Shown in pieces: positions 12,949 through 23,514 of a stretch of 64,000 nucleotides of DNA. Position 1 is the stretch's first letter. Each line of letters starts with the position of its first letter. This DNA is from Candidatus Zixiibacteriota bacterium (GTDB lineage: Bacteria; Zixibacteria; MSB-5A5; GN15; FEB-12): assembly GCA_040753875.1 (NCBI GenBank), contig JBFMDV010000005.1:1-64000 (forward strand). The letters run 5' to 3'. The position numbers and the translations under genes are program-made. The notes under the pieces were generated by a model. The model saw nothing but the letters and a program-made list of their open reading frames with translations. It did no database searches and had not been told where the DNA came from.

Positions 12949-14889
12949 ATGCGAGTCTTTCGAAGCACCGCACAGCTTGCGGTAATGTTGGCATTGACTA
13001 CCGGGGCTATTGCCCAAACTGCGACAATCGAGCAAAGGGTCCTGCGAAAGCAGAAATATATTCCGGATATCGCCACGTTTCTCCAGATTGGCGGATCATC
13101 GGCGGCGGGATTGAGCTGGGACGGGAAACAGGTGTTCTTTACTTCCTCCATGTCGGGGGCCAACCAAGTGTACCGGTTGACTGAGGCCGGCTGGCCGTAT
13201 CAACTGAGCATGTTCGAGGATGGCATCGATTTCTTCACATTGTCATACGGCAGTGATATGGCGATCGTGGGAGCATCGGTGGGAGGGTCGGAGCAGTCAC
13301 AGCTTTTCTTGATGGACACGCAAACCGGCCAGGTCACCCGGCTGACCAATCTGCCGAAAGTACAGTTCGGGTCGGTGACGTGGGCGAAAGACGACCGGTC
13401 GATATACTACCGTTCCAACGAAGAGAATCTCAAGGACTTTTTCATCTACCGGATGAGCCTGGCCGATGGTCAGTCGGTCAAGGTCTTCGGAGACACTGCC
13501 GGCGTGCGGGGTAGCAACTCCATCGCCGATATTTCGCAGGATGGAAACAAGCTTATCGTTTCGAACTATCGGTCGACTGTCGACAACGACCTGTATCTGG
13601 TTGACCTGAAGACTGGCGGTCATCAGAAGTTGACCTCGGATACGCTCGATGTCATGTACTCCTCTCCCACGCTGATGCCCGACAACACGACGATATGGGT
13701 GCTCTGCAACGACAACCCGGATGGTATTTCGCGGCTGGCGAAGATGCGGGTTGGCTCGCCGGAGGTGGAATTTGTCACCGACGGTTGGGTCGACCCGAAA
13801 TGGGAGGTGGAAGGGCTGGGGTTCTCGCGCGACTACAAATACCAGGCGGTGTCGATCAACGAAGACGGTTATATGCGCCTGAAGATACGGGAAGTTGAGT
13901 CCCGCACTGAACTGCCGTCTCCCCCGCTGGCCGGGATGCTGGGGGGTCCGCTTTTCGATCAGAGTGGTGCTTGCATCGTATCGTTCAACGGCCCGACCCA
14001 TGCACCGGATGTATGGCGGTGGAACCCTGCCACGAAAGAACTCAAACAGCTTACCTTTGCTCCGTATGCGGGTATCGACCGCGAGTTGTTTGGTGAACCG
14101 GCGCTTGTTCATTATCGGAGTTTCGACAGTCTCGAAATCCCCGCACTCCTCTACCTTCCCAAGAACTATCAAAAAGGGACGCCGATCCCATTCCTGGTGG
14201 ATGCCCACGGAGGGCCGGAGGGGCAGTCACGCCCATATTTCACGCGGAATATCCAGTATCTGATTCTCAACGGTTTCGGCATTATTCAGCCGAACGTGCG
14301 GGGCTCGGAGGGGTACGGGCGCGAGTACATCAACCTGGACAACTACAAGAACCGCAAAAATTCACTTAAGGACTACAAGGTGGCGGTCGACTACCTGATC
14401 GCCAACGGATATTCCAAAGCGGGTCAGATCGGCATTCGCGGCGGATCGTACGGAGGCTATGTGGTGCTGGGGATGATCACGGAGTATCCGGACCTGTTCG
14501 CCGCGGCAGTGGACGAAGTGGGAATCGCCAACTTCGTGACGTTCTTGCAGAACACCGCGGCTTATCGGCGGGCGCTCCGCGAAGCAGAGTATGGCCCGCT
14601 GTCCGATAGCGCGTTCCTGCGGGAGATCTCCCCTATCTGGAAGGCAGACCGGATCAAGACGCCGCTGCTCGTAGTGCATGGCGCCAACGATCCCAGAGTG
14701 CCTATATCGGAGGCGCGGCAGATCATCAAGGCGATCCAGGACAACGGCGGCGTTGTCGATTCGCTGATCTTCGCGGATGAAGGACATGGTTCGTCAAAGC
14801 GCGTAAATATCATTGCCGAGTATCGGAAGCAGGTGGAGTTCTTCGGCAAGCATCTGCGCAAGGACGAGTCGGCCCAGACCGGTCAGTAG
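12949..14889 (+). CDS. Secreted S9 (prolyl oligopeptidase) family peptidase
   Basis: A 646-residue periplasmic or secreted serine peptidase of the acylaminoacyl-peptidase/DPP-IV type. A signal peptide (about 1-23) precedes a beta-propeller (about 40-380) built of WD40/PD40-like blades, then an alpha/beta-hydrolase domain. The triad is visible: Ser500 in RGGSYGGY, Asp581 in GANDPRVP and His613 in DEGHG. ATG 12949 is chosen because GGAGG lies 11 nt before it. GTG 12943, 5 nt from that site, is an alternative. These enzymes release dipeptides or acylated residues from peptides and would suit scavenging of products from the several proteases encoded nearby. A strong terminator follows. Confidence 0.9.
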   Translation: MRVFRSTAQLAVMLALTTGAIAQTATIEQRVLRKQKYIPDIATFLQIGGSSAAGLSWDGKQVFFTSSMSGANQVYRLTEAGWPYQLSMFEDGIDFFTLSYGSDMAIVGASVGGSEQSQLFLMDTQTGQVTRLTNLPKVQFGSVTWAKDDRSIYYRSNEENLKDFFIYRMSLADGQSVKVFGDTAGVRGSNSIADISQDGNKLIVSNYRSTVDNDLYLVDLKTGGHQKLTSDTLDVMYSSPTLMPDNTTIWVLCNDNPDGISRLAKMRVGSPEVEFVTDGWVDPKWEVEGLGFSRDYKYQAVSINEDGYMRLKIREVESRTELPSPPLAGMLGGPLFDQSGACIVSFNGPTHAPDVWRWNPATKELKQLTFAPYAGIDRELFGEPALVHYRSFDSLEIPALLYLPKNYQKGTPIPFLVDAHGGPEGQSRPYFTRNIQYLILNGFGIIQPNVRGSEGYGREYINLDNYKNRKNSLKDYKVAVDYLIANGYSKAGQIGIRGGSYGGYVVLGMITEYPDLFAAAVDEVGIANFVTFLQNTAAYRRALREAEYGPLSDSAFLREISPIWKADRIKTPLLVVHGANDPRVPISEARQIIKAIQDNGGVVDSLIFADEGHGSSKRVNIIAEYRKQVEFFGKHLRKDESAQTGQ

Positions 14890-14918
14890 TCCGCTTCATA
14901 TCGCAGACTGATATGCGT

Positions 14919-14949
14919 AAGCGGCCGGAGGAGTTCCCCGGCCGCTTTT
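14919..14949. terminator. Intrinsic terminator between convergent genes
   Basis: A perfect 10-bp stem (AAGCGGCCGG at 14919-14928, complement at 14938-14947) with a 9-nt loop, running into TTTTC on the plus strand. It ends the S9 peptidase transcript and may also stop the minus-strand SPOR transcript. Confidence 0.85.
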
Positions 14950-14977
14950 CTATATGGCCTGTCTTCTAAGTTACCTG

Positions 14978-15616
14978 TTATTCGGAGATCTTGTCGATCC
15001 AGGGCTCTATGGCGTATTTCGTTGCCAGCTCGTCTTTCAGGCGCATAGCTTCATCGGACGTGGGTAAGCGTCCGACGCGAATGCGGTAATGGTCACGATC
15101 ATTGACAGTCACCGTGGCAATATACGGCTGGTAGCCATCGTTCTCGAGCTTAGTGACCAACGCCCGCGCCTCCACCAATGTCACGGCACTCCCAACTTGT
15201 ACAGTGAAACTCTCCCCTACTGGACGACGAGGCATGGTGGGACGGGAGACAGCGGCTTCCTCCGGGATAGCGTTGATATCCGGGACCGTATCTGGTGGCA
15301 CGTCCGCTGCCATCGGCTCGACAGTGACCTGGTCGATAAGGGTGACGGCGGTCTGTTCTGTCGCGGTTCTGTCGACGCCGGTATCTGCCCCGATAGGGGC
15401 TTCCATGGCGCTGTCGGTCAGGTACTCTGCATATTGGACTACTGGGGAGCTGTCCTGCAAGATGGTCGAGTATGAACTGTCGATTTGGGCGACCGTATCG
15501 CCGGACAACATTCTCTCCAGACGGGCCGCCTCCCGCTTCCGTTCCTCCGAGCAGGAAATGAGACCAACCGCCATAACACCTGTGAAAATCACCAAAACTC
15601 GTGTCGTCATCGTCAT
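14978..15616 (-). CDS. SPOR-domain lipoprotein
   Basis: 212 residues. A lipobox ending at Cys22 (GLISC) follows a short hydrophobic segment. The middle (about 40-130) is Asp/Pro/Thr-rich and disordered. The last 75 residues are a SPOR domain (SFTVQVGSAVTLVEARAL, then HYRIRVGRL and EA..LKDEL). SPOR domains bind denuded glycan strands of peptidoglycan at division sites, so this is probably an envelope protein anchored by lipid and held to the wall. ATG 15616 has GGAG 5 nt upstream. A second ATG at 15610 would be better spaced. It is convergent with the S9 peptidase and divergent from the cystathionine synthase gene. Confidence 0.85.
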   Translation of the reverse strand: MTMTTRVLVIFTGVMAVGLISCSEERKREAARLERMLSGDTVAQIDSSYSTILQDSSPVVQYAEYLTDSAMEAPIGADTGVDRTATEQTAVTLIDQVTVEPMAADVPPDTVPDINAIPEEAAVSRPTMPRRPVGESFTVQVGSAVTLVEARALVTKLENDGYQPYIATVTVNDRDHYRIRVGRLPTSDEAMRLKDELATKYAIEPWIDKISE

Positions 15617-15783
15617 GTTACTCCGTATTCATCGAGACCCGGCCGAACCCGGCTCGGCACAGCGACAAAAACTATTGGGCGTCGACGGCAGTGTCAATGT
15701 AAAACGGCAGATTGTGGCGGAAATGAAAAATCTTGAATTCGCGAAAGCTGGTGTATAACATATGGAGGACACAAGGAGAATGA

Positions 15784-16773
15784 ATGCGCGCATATGAAAG
15801 CATACTGGACCTTATTGGTCGGACCCCCTTATTGCGCCTGCAGACCGGAATTCCGGTCCCCGGCCCACAGGCGTACGTCAAGCTCGAGTTTTTCAACCCG
15901 ACAGGATCCATCAAGGACAGGATGACGCTTCACATAATCCGGAAAGCCATGTCGGAAGGGCGCCTGAGACCGGGGGACACGGTGATCGATAATACTTCGG
16001 GCAATACCGGGTCGGCGCTGGCGATGGTGGCATCGGTACTCGGTTTGAAGGCGATCCTGGTGACGCCCGAGAAGACCAGTCAGGAAAAAGTCGACCTGAT
16101 CAGATCATACGGGGCGGAAGTCATTGTCACCCCCACGGAGGCGGCTCATCATGATCCGGCGGGGTGCTACATGGTGGCCCGTCGGTTGGCCAAAGAAAAG
16201 GGATATTTCGACCTGGATCAGTACGACAGCCAGGACAACGTGGAGGCCCACTACTTGTCGACCGGGCCGGAGGTCTGGGACGATACCAGCGGCAGGATAA
16301 CGCATTTCGTGGCGGGAATCGGGACTGGTGGGACGTTTTCGGGTATGGCGCGATTCTTGAAGGAGAGAAACCCCCGCATACAGGCAATCGCGGTTGACCC
16401 CGAGGGCTCCATTTTCGCGGATTATATTCGCGACCGGAAGGAGACCACCGGGTACACGTACAAGGTCGAGGGGATCGGTTCCGATGTCATCACCAAAGCG
16501 TTTCACCCGCAGTACGTGGATGCGGTGATCACGGTGTCGGACAAGGACTCGTTCAATAGAGCCCGCCAGATCGCGCGCAAGGAAGGGATCTCGGCCGGTG
16601 GATCCTCAGGTGCGGTGGCGGTGGCGATGGAACAGGTGGCGGCGAAAGCGGGGTCGGGCGCGATCATAGTAGGGATCTTCGCCGATGCCGGTATACGTTA
16701 TCTCAGCAAGTGTTACAACGATTCCTGGATGCGCCAGCAGGGGTACCTGCCGATGTCAGAGGAGAAGCGCTGA
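15784..16773 (+). CDS. cbs: Cystathionine beta-synthase-like PLP enzyme
   Basis: A 329-residue cytosolic fold-type II PLP enzyme. The Schiff-base Lys is K44 in GSIKDR, the substrate loop is SGNTG (72-76), the PLP-phosphate loop GTGGT (180-184) and the ring-N Ser region GGSSG (272-276). Segments PEKTSQEKVD, LDQYDSQ.N..AHY, VDPEGSI and KVEGIGSD match cystathionine beta-synthase better than cysteine synthase. It would condense serine (or O-acetylserine) with homocysteine or sulfide. The C-terminal regulatory CBS pair found in animal enzymes is absent. The AAGGAG site is strong. The next gene starts 1 nt after the stop, so the two are co-translated. Confidence 0.85.
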   Translation: MRAYESILDLIGRTPLLRLQTGIPVPGPQAYVKLEFFNPTGSIKDRMTLHIIRKAMSEGRLRPGDTVIDNTSGNTGSALAMVASVLGLKAILVTPEKTSQEKVDLIRSYGAEVIVTPTEAAHHDPAGCYMVARRLAKEKGYFDLDQYDSQDNVEAHYLSTGPEVWDDTSGRITHFVAGIGTGGTFSGMARFLKERNPRIQAIAVDPEGSIFADYIRDRKETTGYTYKVEGIGSDVITKAFHPQYVDAVITVSDKDSFNRARQIARKEGISAGGSSGAVAVAMEQVAAKAGSGAIIVGIFADAGIRYLSKCYNDSWMRQQGYLPMSEEKR

Positions 16774-16774
16774 C

Positions 16775-17464
16775 ATGTTGCGCTGCTGGATCATGGCCGG
16801 TGCCGGGGCAATCCTGATCCTCGCGTCATCGATTGGCGCCCAAGAGGGGCTTCGCTGCGACGAGCAGATCTATGATTTCGGGCATATCGGAGTTGATTAC
16901 CAAGTCTACCATGACTACAAGCTTCATAATCCCGGCAGCCGACCGGTCAGGATCGATTCCATGAAGGTCCCCTGTGACTGTTCGACTGCTCAGTTGTCGG
17001 ACTCCACAGTACGCCCGGGAGACTCGGTGACGGTCCATGTGACGTTCAGCACCCGGGATTACTATGGCCCGACGAGCAAATCTATCACGCTGTATACCGA
17101 CGGCCCAGGATCGCCGAAAATCGAGCTGTTTTATCTGTCGAATGTGGGTCGATGGATAGCCGGCCTGAAACCGGAGCCGATCTCTCTATTTTTCTTGCCG
17201 GGTCACAAGGCCAAGAAAGTAACACTGACCAACACGCAATTCGAGTCGTACGGGCTCGAGCCGGCCGGCACAGCCGACAACCTGCTGACAGTGTCGCTGG
17301 CGAAGTCCGAAGTACGGAAAGGGCAGTCGTCCACGTTCGATGTCAGCGTGTCAGACAAGGTTGGGGCCGGGACGGTGAACACCTGTTTTCGATTGAAGGC
17401 GGTGGTGCCGGACATCAAAGACCCGGTATTCTTGACCATTCCGGTCAAAATTGTCCGCTATTAG
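16775..17464 (+). CDS. DUF1573-type exported protein
   Basis: 229 residues. A signal peptide (about 1-22, ending near IGAQ) precedes an Ig-like DUF1573 domain: YDFGHIGVDYQVYHDYKLHNPG, here split, then VPCDCST and PGDSVTVHVTFS are standard landmarks. The second half repeats a similar beta-sandwich without the Cys pair. Such proteins are common on FCB cell surfaces, and their job is unknown. ATG 16775 lies 1 nt after the stop of the synthase gene, with GGAGAAG inside that gene's end, so expression is coupled. A link with sulfur metabolism is only positional. Confidence 0.75.
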   Translation: MLRCWIMAGAGAILILASSIGAQEGLRCDEQIYDFGHIGVDYQVYHDYKLHNPGSRPVRIDSMKVPCDCSTAQLSDSTVRPGDSVTVHVTFSTRDYYGPTSKSITLYTDGPGSPKIELFYLSNVGRWIAGLKPEPISLFFLPGHKAKKVTLTNTQFESYGLEPAGTADNLLTVSLAKSEVRKGQSSTFDVSVSDKVGAGTVNTCFRLKAVVPDIKDPVFLTIPVKIVRY

Positions 17465-17521
17465 ATCGCCTGCGAACGTAACACTTTCGAGCCGAATGCC
17501 TAAATGTTGGCGGCAAATGGC

Positions 17522-17553
17522 TTGACAAAAATTCCGATGCGGGCGATTATATA
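17522..17553 (+). promoter_or_regulatory. Promoter in front of a structured non-coding transcript
   Basis: TTGACA at 17522-17527 and TATATA at 17548-17553 (20-nt spacer), or TTATAT one base earlier (19 nt). The spacing is longer than ideal but the hexamers are good. The predicted start falls at the G that opens the stem of the RNA described at 17560. Confidence 0.5.
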
Positions 17554-17559
17554 CGAACC

Positions 17560-17630
17560 GAGGGTGACTCTCTGCTGTCCCTGGGTAGTTTCCTAGCCCC
17601 CTCTACCCAACCAGATGAGCACCCTCTTTT
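17560..17630 (+). ncRNA. Candidate small structured RNA, about 71 nt
   Basis: No open frame fits here. The sequence begins with GAGGGTG (17560-17566), whose complement CACCCTC lies at 17620-17626 and is followed directly by TTTT. Inside, TGGGTAG (17582-17588) pairs with CTACCCA (17603-17609) around a 14-nt loop. A promoter ends 6 nt before the first G. Promoter, closing stem, inner hairpin and U-run together look like a self-contained small RNA. It matches no RNA family I recognise (not SRP, 6S or tmRNA). Confidence 0.45.
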
Positions 17631-17677
17631 AATGTCTCTGCTCCGCAAACTCCCACGATTCGCGAACACACCCAGCC

Positions 17678-17713
17678 AAAAAAAAACCGCCGGTCAGACC
17701 GACGGTTCGTTTT
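17678..17713. terminator. Bidirectional terminator
   Basis: A nine-pair stem with one C-A mismatch (17685-17694 with 17698-17707) and a CAG loop, with an A-run on the left and CGTTTT on the right. It can end transcription from the DUF1573/small-RNA side and from the minus-strand ferredoxin gene, whose stop codon is 13 nt away. Confidence 0.8.
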
Positions 17714-17725
17714 GATGAATCGACG

Positions 17726-17911
17726 TCAGGCTTTCACGATGCAGTCAACCGGGCAGACCGCCACACAATGCTGCCCATCGTCTTGATCCTCGCATTCGTT
17801 GCATGTATCCGGGCTGATAACATAGATGTCCCCCTCCGATATCGAACTGGTAGGACACTCGGGAAGACACAGGCCACAGGCCGTGCATTCTTCGGTTATT
17901 TTCATCGCCAT
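17726..17911 (-). CDS. Small 2[4Fe-4S] ferredoxin
   Basis: A 61-residue electron carrier. The first cluster motif is CTACGLCLPECP. The second has an eight-residue insert between its second and third Cys (CNEC, then CVAVCP), as in Chromatium/Allochromatium-type low-potential ferredoxins. I place the start at ATG 17911 because GGAGGTGG lies 6 nt upstream; the longer frame lacks a site. It is a stand-alone gene with its own terminator. Redox partner not evident. Confidence 0.9.
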   Translation of the reverse strand: MAMKITEECTACGLCLPECPTSSISEGDIYVISPDTCNECEDQDDGQHCVAVCPVDCIVKA

Positions 17912-18298
17912 ATACAACCACCTCCGCAAATGAGTTTCGTGTTGTCACTCTCGTTCATGCGGCGGACAATATACCTAAGGGGAATACGCAGGGACAAGGG
18001 CTACTTTGAAGATTTTGAGAGCGCGGGATATCCGTCCTTGAATTCAATACAAGTTGGTAAGAATTGCGCGCCATACGAACGGACCGCCTCTTGCACGACG
18101 AAGCGGCCCTTTTACATAAAATACGCGCGGAATGAAGGTGCTACGAACACAATGGCAACGCGCCAAAGAAAAAGAATAAGAGGTAGCCAATCGGCATGAT
18201 CTGCAACGCACTGCCAGACTCACCGCCTGACTGAGAGCAGGGACCGAGAGGGTCCCTGCTTTACGCAAGTGATCGCACTGTCTGTTCTTCGAACTATC
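17912..18298. other. Intergenic region with one strong hairpin
   Basis: No supported gene. The short plus-strand frame crossing it has no family pattern. A TTGTCC/TATATT pair (18-nt spacer) on the minus strand around 17968-17997 is a plausible ferredoxin promoter. At the far end lies a perfect 10-bp hairpin (see 18236). Confidence 0.4.
18236..18260 (-). terminator. Stem-loop downstream of the 18299-21157 gene
   Basis: AGCAGGGACC (18236-18245) pairs perfectly with 18251-18260 around GAGAG. It lies 38 nt past the stop of the minus-strand gene. There is no T-run on the minus strand, so its efficiency as a terminator is uncertain. Confidence 0.5.
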
Positions 18299-21157
18299 TT
18301 ACGGACAGCTCGGCAGCGCGACGCCGAAGAACAGGAAATCAACCAGTGCGCTCAGATCGGAAATATCGACGGTGCCATCTTTGGTCACGTCATTCTCGGT
18401 CGGGCATCCCGAAATGGAGCCGCCTGAGAACAAATAGTCAACCATGGCGGACAGATCGGAGATATCGACCAGGTCGGCGGGATCGCCATCGCAGTTGCCG
18501 GTGACGTTGATGCAGCAGCAGCTGTCGCCGATACCGTCACCGTCGGTGTCCTCCTGCAGGGGGTTGTAGTCGTACGGGCAGTTGTCACAAACATCACCGA
18601 CTCCATCCAGGTCACCATCCTCCTGACCCGGATTGTAGTCAAACGGACAGTTATCCTGATCATCGGGAATTCCGTCGCCATCGGTGTCCGGCACAACCGG
18701 ACAGATGACGATGGCATACTCGATGAGCGTGTGCATTGGTCCGCCTTGATACTGGTGCTGCGCACCGGTCGGGTCAAATGCATTCTGGCCATAGAAATTG
18801 ACCGGATCGACCGGATAGTTGGCCAGCTCGCAGCTAAACGGAGGCGCCTGCAGCGGCATGCAGCCCGCGGGGATGACGTTGTAGCGGTCGTGATGCATGG
18901 TTCCGTGCGGACCGGAAACGTACTGGGCATCATTGTGCACGTTGGGGGCGTGCCCGACCCCTTCGTTGTTGTCGAAGTACGGATCGGAGATACAGAGCGC
19001 GGAATCGAGCGGGTTGGTGCATACACCCGCGACGGTCACAAAGTGGCCGCCGACGCGCTCACAGACCATGGTGGTCATCTCTTCCCAATAGCCCAGAAGC
19101 AAGATGACGTTCTGGCTGAGCAGCACCTGCTCCTTGATGAATCTGAATCCAAACGCCGGATCGATCGGCACAACCTGAATATTGTACTTGGGAGTCAGAC
19201 CACAGCTGTCAATCCACTGCTGTGCGGCTGTTGCCAGATCGAACACGTTGGTACCTGTCTTCCCACCCTGATTGGTCAGGGCGTACTTGGCCAGAGTGTC
19301 TACGAATGGCAGGACGTTTACGGGATCGTGGTCATCCAGAACCGGCGGCATTGTCGAGAACCACCGTACCAACGGATAATGATCGTTGACTGTCGGCGGC
19401 GGGATCGGAACTGTCTCGAACTTGGAGTCAAACCACCAGAAGCAATTGGCGAGGGCCAGCGGACCGCAATGCGTCCACTGCTGCACTGGCGGCTGACCGA
19501 CCATCACAAACCAATTGTCTTGTTTCTGGTCGAAATCGGGCACTCCTGCCGGTGCATAATCGACATAGGCCGGCTTGTAATATTCGCAGGTGTCCAGAGC
19601 GTGCTCGCCGGTCACGACGACTGTGGCGCTGAATTCCGATGTATTGACATTCAGATCAGTTGCTGTTGCCGTCACCGAATCACCAACTACCAGACCGAGT
19701 ACGGTAAGGCTCCAGTTTCCGAGGGCATCGGGGTTGGTGGAACCCAGGTAGGTCTTCCCTTCGCCGAAGCCTGTTGGGTCAAGTGCCGCCTTGAAAACTT
19801 CGACCGTGGCCTGCGTGGGGTCAGTGTCAATGCCGAGCGTGCCGATTATTGGCGTACCTGCAGCGGCATAGACGGCAGAGGTGATGACCGGGTAATTCAG
19901 TTCTTCGTTAGGGCCGGTATCCAGATCGCCGAGATCGTTTATGCCCACACCGTTGTGCTGATGGTCTATGCCGATTGAGGCGTTATCGTAGAGCGAGTTC
20001 TGTGTAATCCGGTTCTTGTCGGCATTCGTGGCGTTGACGGGGTCCTCCCAGACCACGACTCCTACGCAACCGTTGGTGGCGATTTTGTTGTCCGGGCCAA
20101 TCCGATTTCGATCAGCGCATCCCCAGAATGCTGGTCCGTACATGCCCACAGCCACGCCGTGCGTACTGTTCGGCAGAGTCGCGAGGGTGATGGTGAGCCC
20201 TATGATATTCGAGTCGACTATATTGTTGTAGGTCTGGATTGGTGGTGCCTGGTACTGGACGTTATTAAAGCCGTTGATAGAGACGCCGTCGTAGTCGTTA
20301 CCGGAGCTCAGGTTTCCGCGAATGAGGTTGTCATGGGTCCCCTCGGCCAGAGTGACGCCGCAGTGATCGTTGCCGAGATCGACCGTGCCGGTGATGTCGG
20401 TACCGAGATAGTTGTAGGTTACCCGGTTGTTCCAGACATCGCCGGGCTGCATCGGACCGATGATAGCGACACCGTCGGCCCAGTTGCCTGATATCAGGTT
20501 CTTATTGACGATGTTGTCGCAGGTGTAGGTGCCGGGGAGGTTTTTGATCATGACGCCAGCCCAGAGAGTCGGCACACTGAGGCCGTTCCCACGGTCAATT
20601 GTGCCGGTCATATCGGTGCCGATAAAATTGCAGTAGATGATGTTATAGCAGGCCTCGCCCTGCGGTGCCTCGATGCGAATGCCGTCCTCCTGGAAATCGT
20701 TTATGATCAGTCCCTGAATCACGTTGAAGTTGGACTGGATCCATAGGCCGCAGGCGGCTCCGGCAAGACTGCCGTCGATCTCCATTACCAGAGTGGCCGT
20801 AGACGGAGGATTTGCACCGGGCGCGGCACCGGCCTGGCTCAGGCCGTCAATAGTGACACCTGAGGGATCGGTCAGGGGCGGGAGCTGGGACAGCGGCATA
20901 ATGGTATATGGGGGTATTCCCGGAGGCATTATGGCGAAATTGATGAGGTCGTTTCCCGGGCTGCCGTTGGCGGCCTGGATGGCCGCTCGAAGCGTGCCGG
21001 GACCGGCGTCGGCAAGACTGGTAACAGTGAAGATGAGCCCAGGTCGTGCCGGCGAGATGTTCTGCGCCGACGGCGGGCCTGCGCCGTCGAAGAAAACTGC
21101 GAGCAGAACCAGCAAGAGCCCTCCCACTAACGCTGGCATTAGCGTGTGTCGTTTCAT
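18299..21157 (-). CDS. Secreted beta-helix / C39-like peptidase / TSP3 / dockerin-like protein
   Basis: 952 residues, modular. A signal peptide (about 1-32) is followed by SLADAGPGTLRAAI and a right-handed parallel beta-helix rich in N-x-I and GN.I turns (about 45-420), then an Ig-like segment (to about 520). A papain/C39-like domain follows with Cys564 in WTHCGPLALANC and His705 in GGHFVTVAG, with Asp in SDPYFDN. Next are thrombospondin type-3 calcium repeats (DTDGDGIPDDQDNCP and copies, about 835-885) and two dockerin-like repeats with DISDLSAMVDYLF and DISDLSALVDFLF. Likely a surface or secreted peptidase-like protein that binds polysaccharide. GGGAGG precedes the ATG and a consensus promoter lies upstream. 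Confidence 0.8.
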   Translation of the reverse strand: MKRHTLMPALVGGLLLVLLAVFFDGAGPPSAQNISPARPGLIFTVTSLADAGPGTLRAAIQAANGSPGNDLINFAIMPPGIPPYTIMPLSQLPPLTDPSGVTIDGLSQAGAAPGANPPSTATLVMEIDGSLAGAACGLWIQSNFNVIQGLIINDFQEDGIRIEAPQGEACYNIIYCNFIGTDMTGTIDRGNGLSVPTLWAGVMIKNLPGTYTCDNIVNKNLISGNWADGVAIIGPMQPGDVWNNRVTYNYLGTDITGTVDLGNDHCGVTLAEGTHDNLIRGNLSSGNDYDGVSINGFNNVQYQAPPIQTYNNIVDSNIIGLTITLATLPNSTHGVAVGMYGPAFWGCADRNRIGPDNKIATNGCVGVVVWEDPVNATNADKNRITQNSLYDNASIGIDHQHNGVGINDLGDLDTGPNEELNYPVITSAVYAAAGTPIIGTLGIDTDPTQATVEVFKAALDPTGFGEGKTYLGSTNPDALGNWSLTVLGLVVGDSVTATATDLNVNTSEFSATVVVTGEHALDTCEYYKPAYVDYAPAGVPDFDQKQDNWFVMVGQPPVQQWTHCGPLALANCFWWFDSKFETVPIPPPTVNDHYPLVRWFSTMPPVLDDHDPVNVLPFVDTLAKYALTNQGGKTGTNVFDLATAAQQWIDSCGLTPKYNIQVVPIDPAFGFRFIKEQVLLSQNVILLLGYWEEMTTMVCERVGGHFVTVAGVCTNPLDSALCISDPYFDNNEGVGHAPNVHNDAQYVSGPHGTMHHDRYNVIPAGCMPLQAPPFSCELANYPVDPVNFYGQNAFDPTGAQHQYQGGPMHTLIEYAIVICPVVPDTDGDGIPDDQDNCPFDYNPGQEDGDLDGVGDVCDNCPYDYNPLQEDTDGDGIGDSCCCINVTGNCDGDPADLVDISDLSAMVDYLFSGGSISGCPTENDVTKDGTVDISDLSALVDFLFFGVALPSCP

Positions 21158-23358: not shown

Positions 23359-23430
<72 letters not shown>

Positions 23431-23438
23431 CGAATAAT

Positions 23439-23514
<76 letters not shown>

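Follow-up and report, generated by a model that had tools for sequence, protein, structure and literature searches.

A structured RNA with a near-constant C-rich loop, recurring through most of Candidatus Zixiibacteriota

The locus and its promoter-like site

The window, as the term is used here, is the whole stretch of 64,000 nucleotides of Candidatus Zixiibacteriota DNA that was analysed. The site of interest at 17522–17630 sits between a gene for a DUF1573 protein on the plus strand (16775–17464, PF07610) and a convergent gene for a 4Fe-4S ferredoxin on the minus strand (17726–17929, PF00037). Ahead of the DUF1573 gene lies a plus-strand gene for a PLP-dependent enzyme (15784–16773, PF00291), the product of which we read as cysteine synthase-like. 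The ferredoxin gene has a strong terminator-like site of its own at 17684–17708 on the minus strand, with an 11-bp stem and a T-run, 54 nt past the RNA described below, and two neighbouring tRNA genes are found further along at 23359–23514 (minus strand).

An earlier note, made from the letters of the window, had proposed a self-contained small RNA at this site, with a promoter of the form TTGACA/TATATA. The first half of that promoter stands, as TTGACA at 17522–17527 (plus strand) matches the −35 consensus. The second half does not, since TATATA (17548–17553) is spaced at 20 nt and GATTAT at 17545–17550 (plus strand) fits better: the spacer is then 17 nt, and the pair agrees with the consensus at 10 of 12 positions. 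TTGACA/GATTAT was the best sigma-70-type promoter-like site that a scan found within 14000–21000. Taken alone the promoter scan is weak: it picked up 7 promoter-like sites in the region, where shuffled sequence yields 4.1 on average. The rod-shaped structure following the promoter-like site is missing from the terminator-like sites listed by a scan of the same region. With both scans weak by themselves, the proof of the RNA is comparative.

Downstream of the promoter-like site comes the RNA body at 17560–17630 (plus strand), a conserved block at whose borders most BLAST alignments end. It starts about 96 nt past the DUF1573 stop codon and would give a transcript of approximately 71–72 nt. The earlier note had described the element as having no coding frame, and indeed no open reading frame of at least 60 amino acids spans the body.

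Fold of the RNA in the window

The body folds into a rod of three helices capped by a single loop, with the 3′ strands placed by the fold and by pairing across the RNA family (all on the plus strand). In the closing helix, GAGGGUG at 17560–17566 pairs with CACCCUC at 17620–17626. In the inner helix, UGGGUAG at 17582–17588 pairs with CUACCCA at 17603–17609, and a U-run (TTTT, 17627–17630) adjoins the end of the closing stem at 17626. These are the 7-bp closing stem, the inner 7-bp hairpin and the U-run directly after the stem that the earlier note had pointed out, and each was found where it should be. Absent from that description was a middle helix in which CUCUCUG at 17568–17574 pairs with 17612–17615 and 17617–17619, the 3′ strand (17612–17619) reading CAGA, one bulged U, and GAG; compensatory changes occur in all 7 of its modelled pairs. 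The apical loop at 17589–17602 is 14 nt long and C-rich, reads UUUCCUAGCCCCCU, and is the most constant part of the whole element. For 17522–17640 the folding z-score was −2.66, and 1 of 200 shuffles folded to as low an energy.

Comparative evidence for structure

A set of 121 copies, a part of all the copies found, was reduced to 101 distinct sequences for folding; L057 and L063, both truncated at a contig end, are not among the 121. Folded independently, all 101 distinct members formed a single hairpin with closed ends, and all 101 had z-scores below −2 with a mean of −4.62. Over the family the closed span measures 55–72 nt. In 86 of them, none of 100 shuffles folded as well.

Alignment of 94 distinct rows to the covariance model R1, which was built from 37 sequences, placed paired bases in 89.8% of cells, rising to 96.2% for the closing helix (helix 1) and 98.4% for the 6 modelled pairs of the inner helix (helix 4). 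The middle helices were the least regular, with 69.8% and 79.6% of cells paired (helices 2 and 3). Two-sided changes were seen in 20 of 20 modelled pairs, amounting to 262 cells compared with 75.8 in shuffles, so the search for paired substitutions in relatives that the earlier note had called for gave a positive answer. The covariation score was 0.411 against 0.152 in shuffles, a value reached by 0 of 500 shuffles, and pairing falls to 42–47% once the partners are slid by one column. Because the 94-row alignment was fitted to a model, the independent folds of the 101 sequences matter. RNAalifold, applied to a first plain MAFFT alignment, returned only 11 pairs, of which 6 showed compensatory change, a low count that arises because the stems of paralogues misalign in the MAFFT alignment.

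Pairing of the 5′ GAGGG with CCCUC of the loop instead was considered and rejected on inspection, as stems of other members have changed (to 5′ GGGAG in L070, for example) while the loop has stayed constant. The motif AGCCCCC occurs in 88 of the 101 distinct members and CCCCC in 97, and in the folds CCCC lies inside the apical loop in 98, making the loop the least-changing part of the RNA. It is the same across paralogues whose stems differ and yet stay complementary. Tandem double copies were noted at L122, L123 and L141, with starts 207–290 nt apart; in L122 and L123 the loop of the second copy is altered.

Probable transcribed strand and transcript ends

Promoter-like and terminator-like features recur across the family. 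Where 60 nt of upstream sequence were available (120 copies), TTGAC lies within those 60 nt in 78 copies and a site with at least 10 of 12 matches to the promoter consensus in 62, compared with 98 of 2400 shuffled sequences. At least five T occur in the 10 nt past the closing stem in 112 of 119 copies, and the mirror feature expected for a minus-strand RNA in 36 of 119. This asymmetry, together with the upstream promoter-like sites, favours the plus strand as the transcript, and on these signals the plus strand is the likelier one. The promoter-like site, the structure and the U-run recur on one and the same strand in most of the copies examined, and the rod is probably its own intrinsic terminator. 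In L070 and L072, inverted repeats of the GCTTC/GAAGC type precede the RNA where other copies have TTGACA. These two loci and L068 have neighbours in common, an HD protein and a DNA polymerase III delta-like protein, as well as a sigma-factor-like gene recognised by eye.

With the conserved rod, the paired substitutions, the promoter-like site and the U-run taken together, the small-RNA interpretation has gained support, and we are all but certain that 17560–17630 is a real structured RNA gene.

Distribution of the family

A BLAST query of 161 bases was compared with 61 genomes of the window's family and order, its own genome included. The body was matched in 49 of the 61 at E < 1e-15, with identities of 82–100%; the 82% belongs to an alignment that extends past the body into upstream flanking sequence, and all others reach at least 89%. 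With the covariance model R1, a single copy was detected in the window's own genome. Across the phylum Candidatus Zixiibacteriota, 107 of the 132 genomes searched carried one or more copies, and these represent 73 of 85 genera; among the accepted matches the weakest had E-values of 0.001 to 0.007. Of the 78 genomes of good quality (completeness of 90% or more, contamination of 5% or less), 65 had a match and 13 did not.

Outside the phylum, a gapped loop pattern was run over one genome each of 84,980 species. It picked out 78 stretches, of which 64 are named Zixibacteria, 13 were matched to genomes of the phylum and one comes from Komeilibacteria. Five of the 13 less clearly named stretches scored 88.5–93.2 bits with R1. 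The Komeilibacteria stretch (L230) was taken as a chance match, with only the loop region aligned at 15.7 bits and an E-value of 0.064. Of the 121 known copies the pattern recovers only 82, so other phyla may still hold divergent relatives. From these comparisons of genome sequence, a free-standing RNA gene on the plus strand, belonging to an uncatalogued family present in most of Candidatus Zixiibacteriota, is the supported conclusion.

In the window's own family, four genomes (G008, G021, G025 and G032) keep the synthase, DUF1573 and ferredoxin genes in place, and R1 finds no copy of the RNA in them, either genome-wide with stricter filters or at the locus up to E = 5. The ferredoxin gene is thus retained while the RNA is absent from the same place. 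Loss of the RNA from an otherwise kept locus means that it is dispensable in some lineages, and the four genomes offer natural controls for its function.

Gene surroundings

The counts of nearest genes given here ignore unclustered small open reading frames below 130 amino acids. Among the 111 copies for which an upstream gene could be seen, 50 have a member of the DUF1573 cluster as their closest gene on that side, separated from the RNA by 51–348 nt. In 11 loci drawn from seven families (L110, L111, L114, L115, L116, L119, L122, L126, L128, L131 and L144), a gene of cluster F7 ends 41–228 nt before the RNA. All five F7 proteins scanned from beside the RNA carry Response_reg and GerE domains and are response regulators, and in 7 of the 11 loci a member of cluster F15 lies ahead of the F7 gene. 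Both F15 proteins scanned have the HisKA_3 and HATPase_c domains of histidine kinases. Two-component control of the RNA at these loci is possible.

On the downstream side, a convergent gene for RtcB ligase is nearest in 25 of 117 copies; such copies occur in families f2, f4, f5, f9 and others (e.g., L022 and L028), often with archease as the next gene. In 14 of 117 the nearest gene is a convergent member of a PHP-type cluster, from which the one protein scanned fell just below the Pfam cut-off. In 8 of 117 copies, all paralogues (L067, L069, L071, L073, L151, L152, L157 and L159), the nearest downstream gene is a codirectional one of cluster F10, which starts 223–355 nt from the RNA start. The F10 proteins reach 1270 amino acids within the fetched loci, and the one member scanned, that of L069, has kinase, TPR, GAF and sigma54-activator domains. 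A signal input or a leader role is possible in this neighbourhood.

A proposed mode of action

The RNA would be transcribed from its own sigma-70-type promoter and would accumulate as a stable molecule of 70-odd nucleotides, a rod of three helices with a 13–14-nt C-rich apical loop and a U-run after the rod. The exposed AGCCCCC(U) loop would then pair in trans, without Hfq, with G-rich stretches near the translation starts of a few mRNAs, the translation of which would be blocked or altered. On this model the stems could change freely as long as they pair, because they merely present the loop, and each copy, depending on the signalling genes beside it, would link another signal to one shared loop chemistry. 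We judge this model, a trans-acting and Hfq-independent small RNA acting by loop–mRNA pairing in the manner of 6C, sX13 and Yfr1, to have an even chance of being right.

With respect to Hfq, the Pfam model found the protein in 0 of the 31 genomes searched, and the same model was positive in 5 of 14 control genomes.

The searches for targets were negative or weak. In the window's genome the loop was compared with 369 translation-start regions, taken from 462,564 of its 3,291,798 bases with start codons chosen by script, and its complementarity was no better than that of shuffled loops, 82 of 100 of which paired as well; a genome-wide anti-Shine–Dalgarno action was rejected on this count, and single mRNAs may still be targets. 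Twelve 6-mer pieces of the loop complement were also counted and gave no clear signal. Near-full complements of the loop (17 nt, at most 2 mismatches) were found 9 times outside recognised copies in 41 genomes, compared with 21 times for the reversed control. Eight of the nine were scored with R1, yielding seven weak matches in the loop region (10.9–18.0 bits) and one with none; L287 and L289 may be divergent copies of the RNA.

As for the neighbours as targets, 28 gene clusters revealed no general complementarity to the loop. Cluster F21 stands out, with 0 of 60 shuffles as good, but this comprises five related sequences among 28 tests. It is a TonB-receptor gene beside paralogues (L077 and L147), and a stretch near its start, GGGCUCAGGAAA, is complementary to the main loop, a match in sequence that is suggestive for a small sample. 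Across 30 TonB-receptor starts, taken from among the matches listed in 26 genomes, 29 of 100 shuffles pair as well. Pairing of the loop with the csrA leaders of 12 genomes came to −11.9 to −16.2 kcal/mol, and no site was shared by the leaders. Immediately ahead of the start, these leaders (L274–L285) carry CCACGGAGGG in 9 of the 12 genomes and CCAAGGAGGG in 2, a motif that looks like a CsrA autoregulation site. Since the target tests were negative, loop–mRNA pairing is a mechanism that we infer, and a protein partner stays a serious rival.

Alternatives to loop–mRNA pairing

In the main rival, an RNA-binding protein would recognise the constant loop, and the RNA would titrate or guide that protein as a C-rich-loop analogue of CsrB or RsmY. 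The loop and the closing UAG/CUA pairs do seem constrained beyond what the pairing of diverse mRNAs would need, and the F7 and F15 genes upstream of some copies recall the GacS/GacA two-component system, which stands in such a relation to RsmY and RsmZ. CsrA was found in 20 of the 21 genomes searched. CsrA, however, binds GGA motifs, and there is no GGA on the transcribed strand of the loop; in addition, G008, G010 and G011, in which no copy of the RNA was detected, still carry CsrA, and no candidate protein has been identified. Overall, a protein decoy or ribonucleoprotein is possible but rather doubtful.

Could the element be a housekeeping RNA in disguise, such as 6S, SRP or a tRNA-like RNA? 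Its wide distribution, its single copy in the window's genome and its consensus-like promoter would suit one, and the 6S role is unfilled, as the Rfam model RF00013 matched 0 of 21 genomes. Against this, Rfam at gathering score put no match on the RNA in the window or at 20 diverse loci of the family, the 187-position 6S model is more than twice as long as the closed span, and the RNA can be lost. We regard a housekeeping RNA as improbable, and membership of the 6S family in particular is contradicted by the same model and the same lengths.

A cis-acting leader or attenuator of the downstream gene would fit the eight paralogues that precede F10 genes. The downstream gene is, however, often convergent, as with RtcB, the PHP-type cluster and the ferredoxin gene of the window, which makes a leader function very improbable. 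The idea that the element is merely the transcription terminator of the synthase–DUF1573 operon draws on the strong hairpin followed by U at a short distance from the DUF1573 stop codon, and is more improbable still. Termination needs neither a constant 14-nt loop nor 72 nt of conserved sequence, the element has its own promoter-like site and occurs in unrelated contexts, with fewer than half of the copies behind a DUF1573 gene, and the four genomes noted above manage without it in the same place. A conserved short peptide on the minus strand, where one frame of the 72-nt body has no stop, can practically be dismissed, as the closed-span lengths differ by amounts that are not multiples of three and the substitutions preserve base pairs.

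Relation to known small RNAs

Rfam release 15, at gathering score, matched only tRNAs in the window and in the 20 diverse loci, and up to E = 10 within 17400–17760 its matches fell only at 17676–17741 on the minus strand, the region of the ferredoxin terminator. Openly licensed papers on small or noncoding RNA in Zixibacteria, C-rich-loop RNAs and structured RNAs did not, among the matches listed, describe this RNA.

Loop–mRNA pairing would place the RNA nearest to the Hfq-independent C-rich-loop small RNAs, a working mode and no homology family, with which it has in common the C-rich apical loop found in nearly all of its distinct members. The 6C/B11 RNA of Actinobacteria (Mycobacterium) is likewise a small RNA with C-rich loops, and is chaperone-independent going by the title of a paper cited in PMC10470900. 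According to PMC10470900, B11 has two C-rich loops, in contrast to the one rod, one loop and closing stem running into a U-run seen here, and the leader of the B11-repressed eccB4 contains a six-G tract that could bind either of them. The present RNA matches no Rfam model for 6C, and its fold is a single hairpin in every distinct member instead of one with two C-rich loops.

The sX13 RNA of Xanthomonas also has C-rich apical loops, is Hfq-independent and represses mRNAs with G-rich motifs near the start codon, but it consists of three stems and three loops in place of a single hairpin (PMC3771888), and it belongs to another phylum. No sequence relation between sX13 and this RNA appeared in the Rfam and pattern searches made. 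In Yfr1 of Cyanobacteria the motif lies between two stem-loops, whereas the motif of the present RNA differs in sequence and caps a rod as its apical loop; the pattern matches but one fall within Candidatus Zixiibacteriota, again with no Rfam match. Yfr1 is nonetheless alike in being conserved through a phylum with a constant motif. The Yfr1 motif is fully conserved, and for most of the 11 targets put to the test its predicted contact site lies immediately before the start codon (PMC6974561).

CsrB, RsmY and RsmZ resemble the present family in that genes for a histidine kinase and a LuxR-type response regulator lie upstream of some copies. They differ in that the loop here is without GGA, so that titration of CsrA by the known rule does not apply. 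The RNA would thus work most like the C-rich-loop small RNAs, but falls outside the structural definitions of 6C and sX13, and is therefore filed as a new family.

Significance for Candidatus Zixiibacteriota

Spread through a phylum, absent from Rfam and almost unvarying in its loop, the RNA points to a layer of regulation in bacteria whose genomes, as used here, are almost all metagenome-assembled. With a covariance model ready and the loop as a clear candidate active site, its function can be tested in a heterologous host. Tentatively, the RNA may be a post-transcriptional hub of a phylum in which Hfq was not detected: a constant C-rich loop on interchangeable stems, placed beside different sensors (a histidine kinase with a LuxR-type response regulator in some loci, kinase–TPR–GAF–sigma54 regulators in others), would let their signals converge on a single recognition event, with mRNAs or with a protein that binds the C-rich loop. 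The finding thereby bears on RNA regulation in bacteria without detectable Hfq or 6S RNA.
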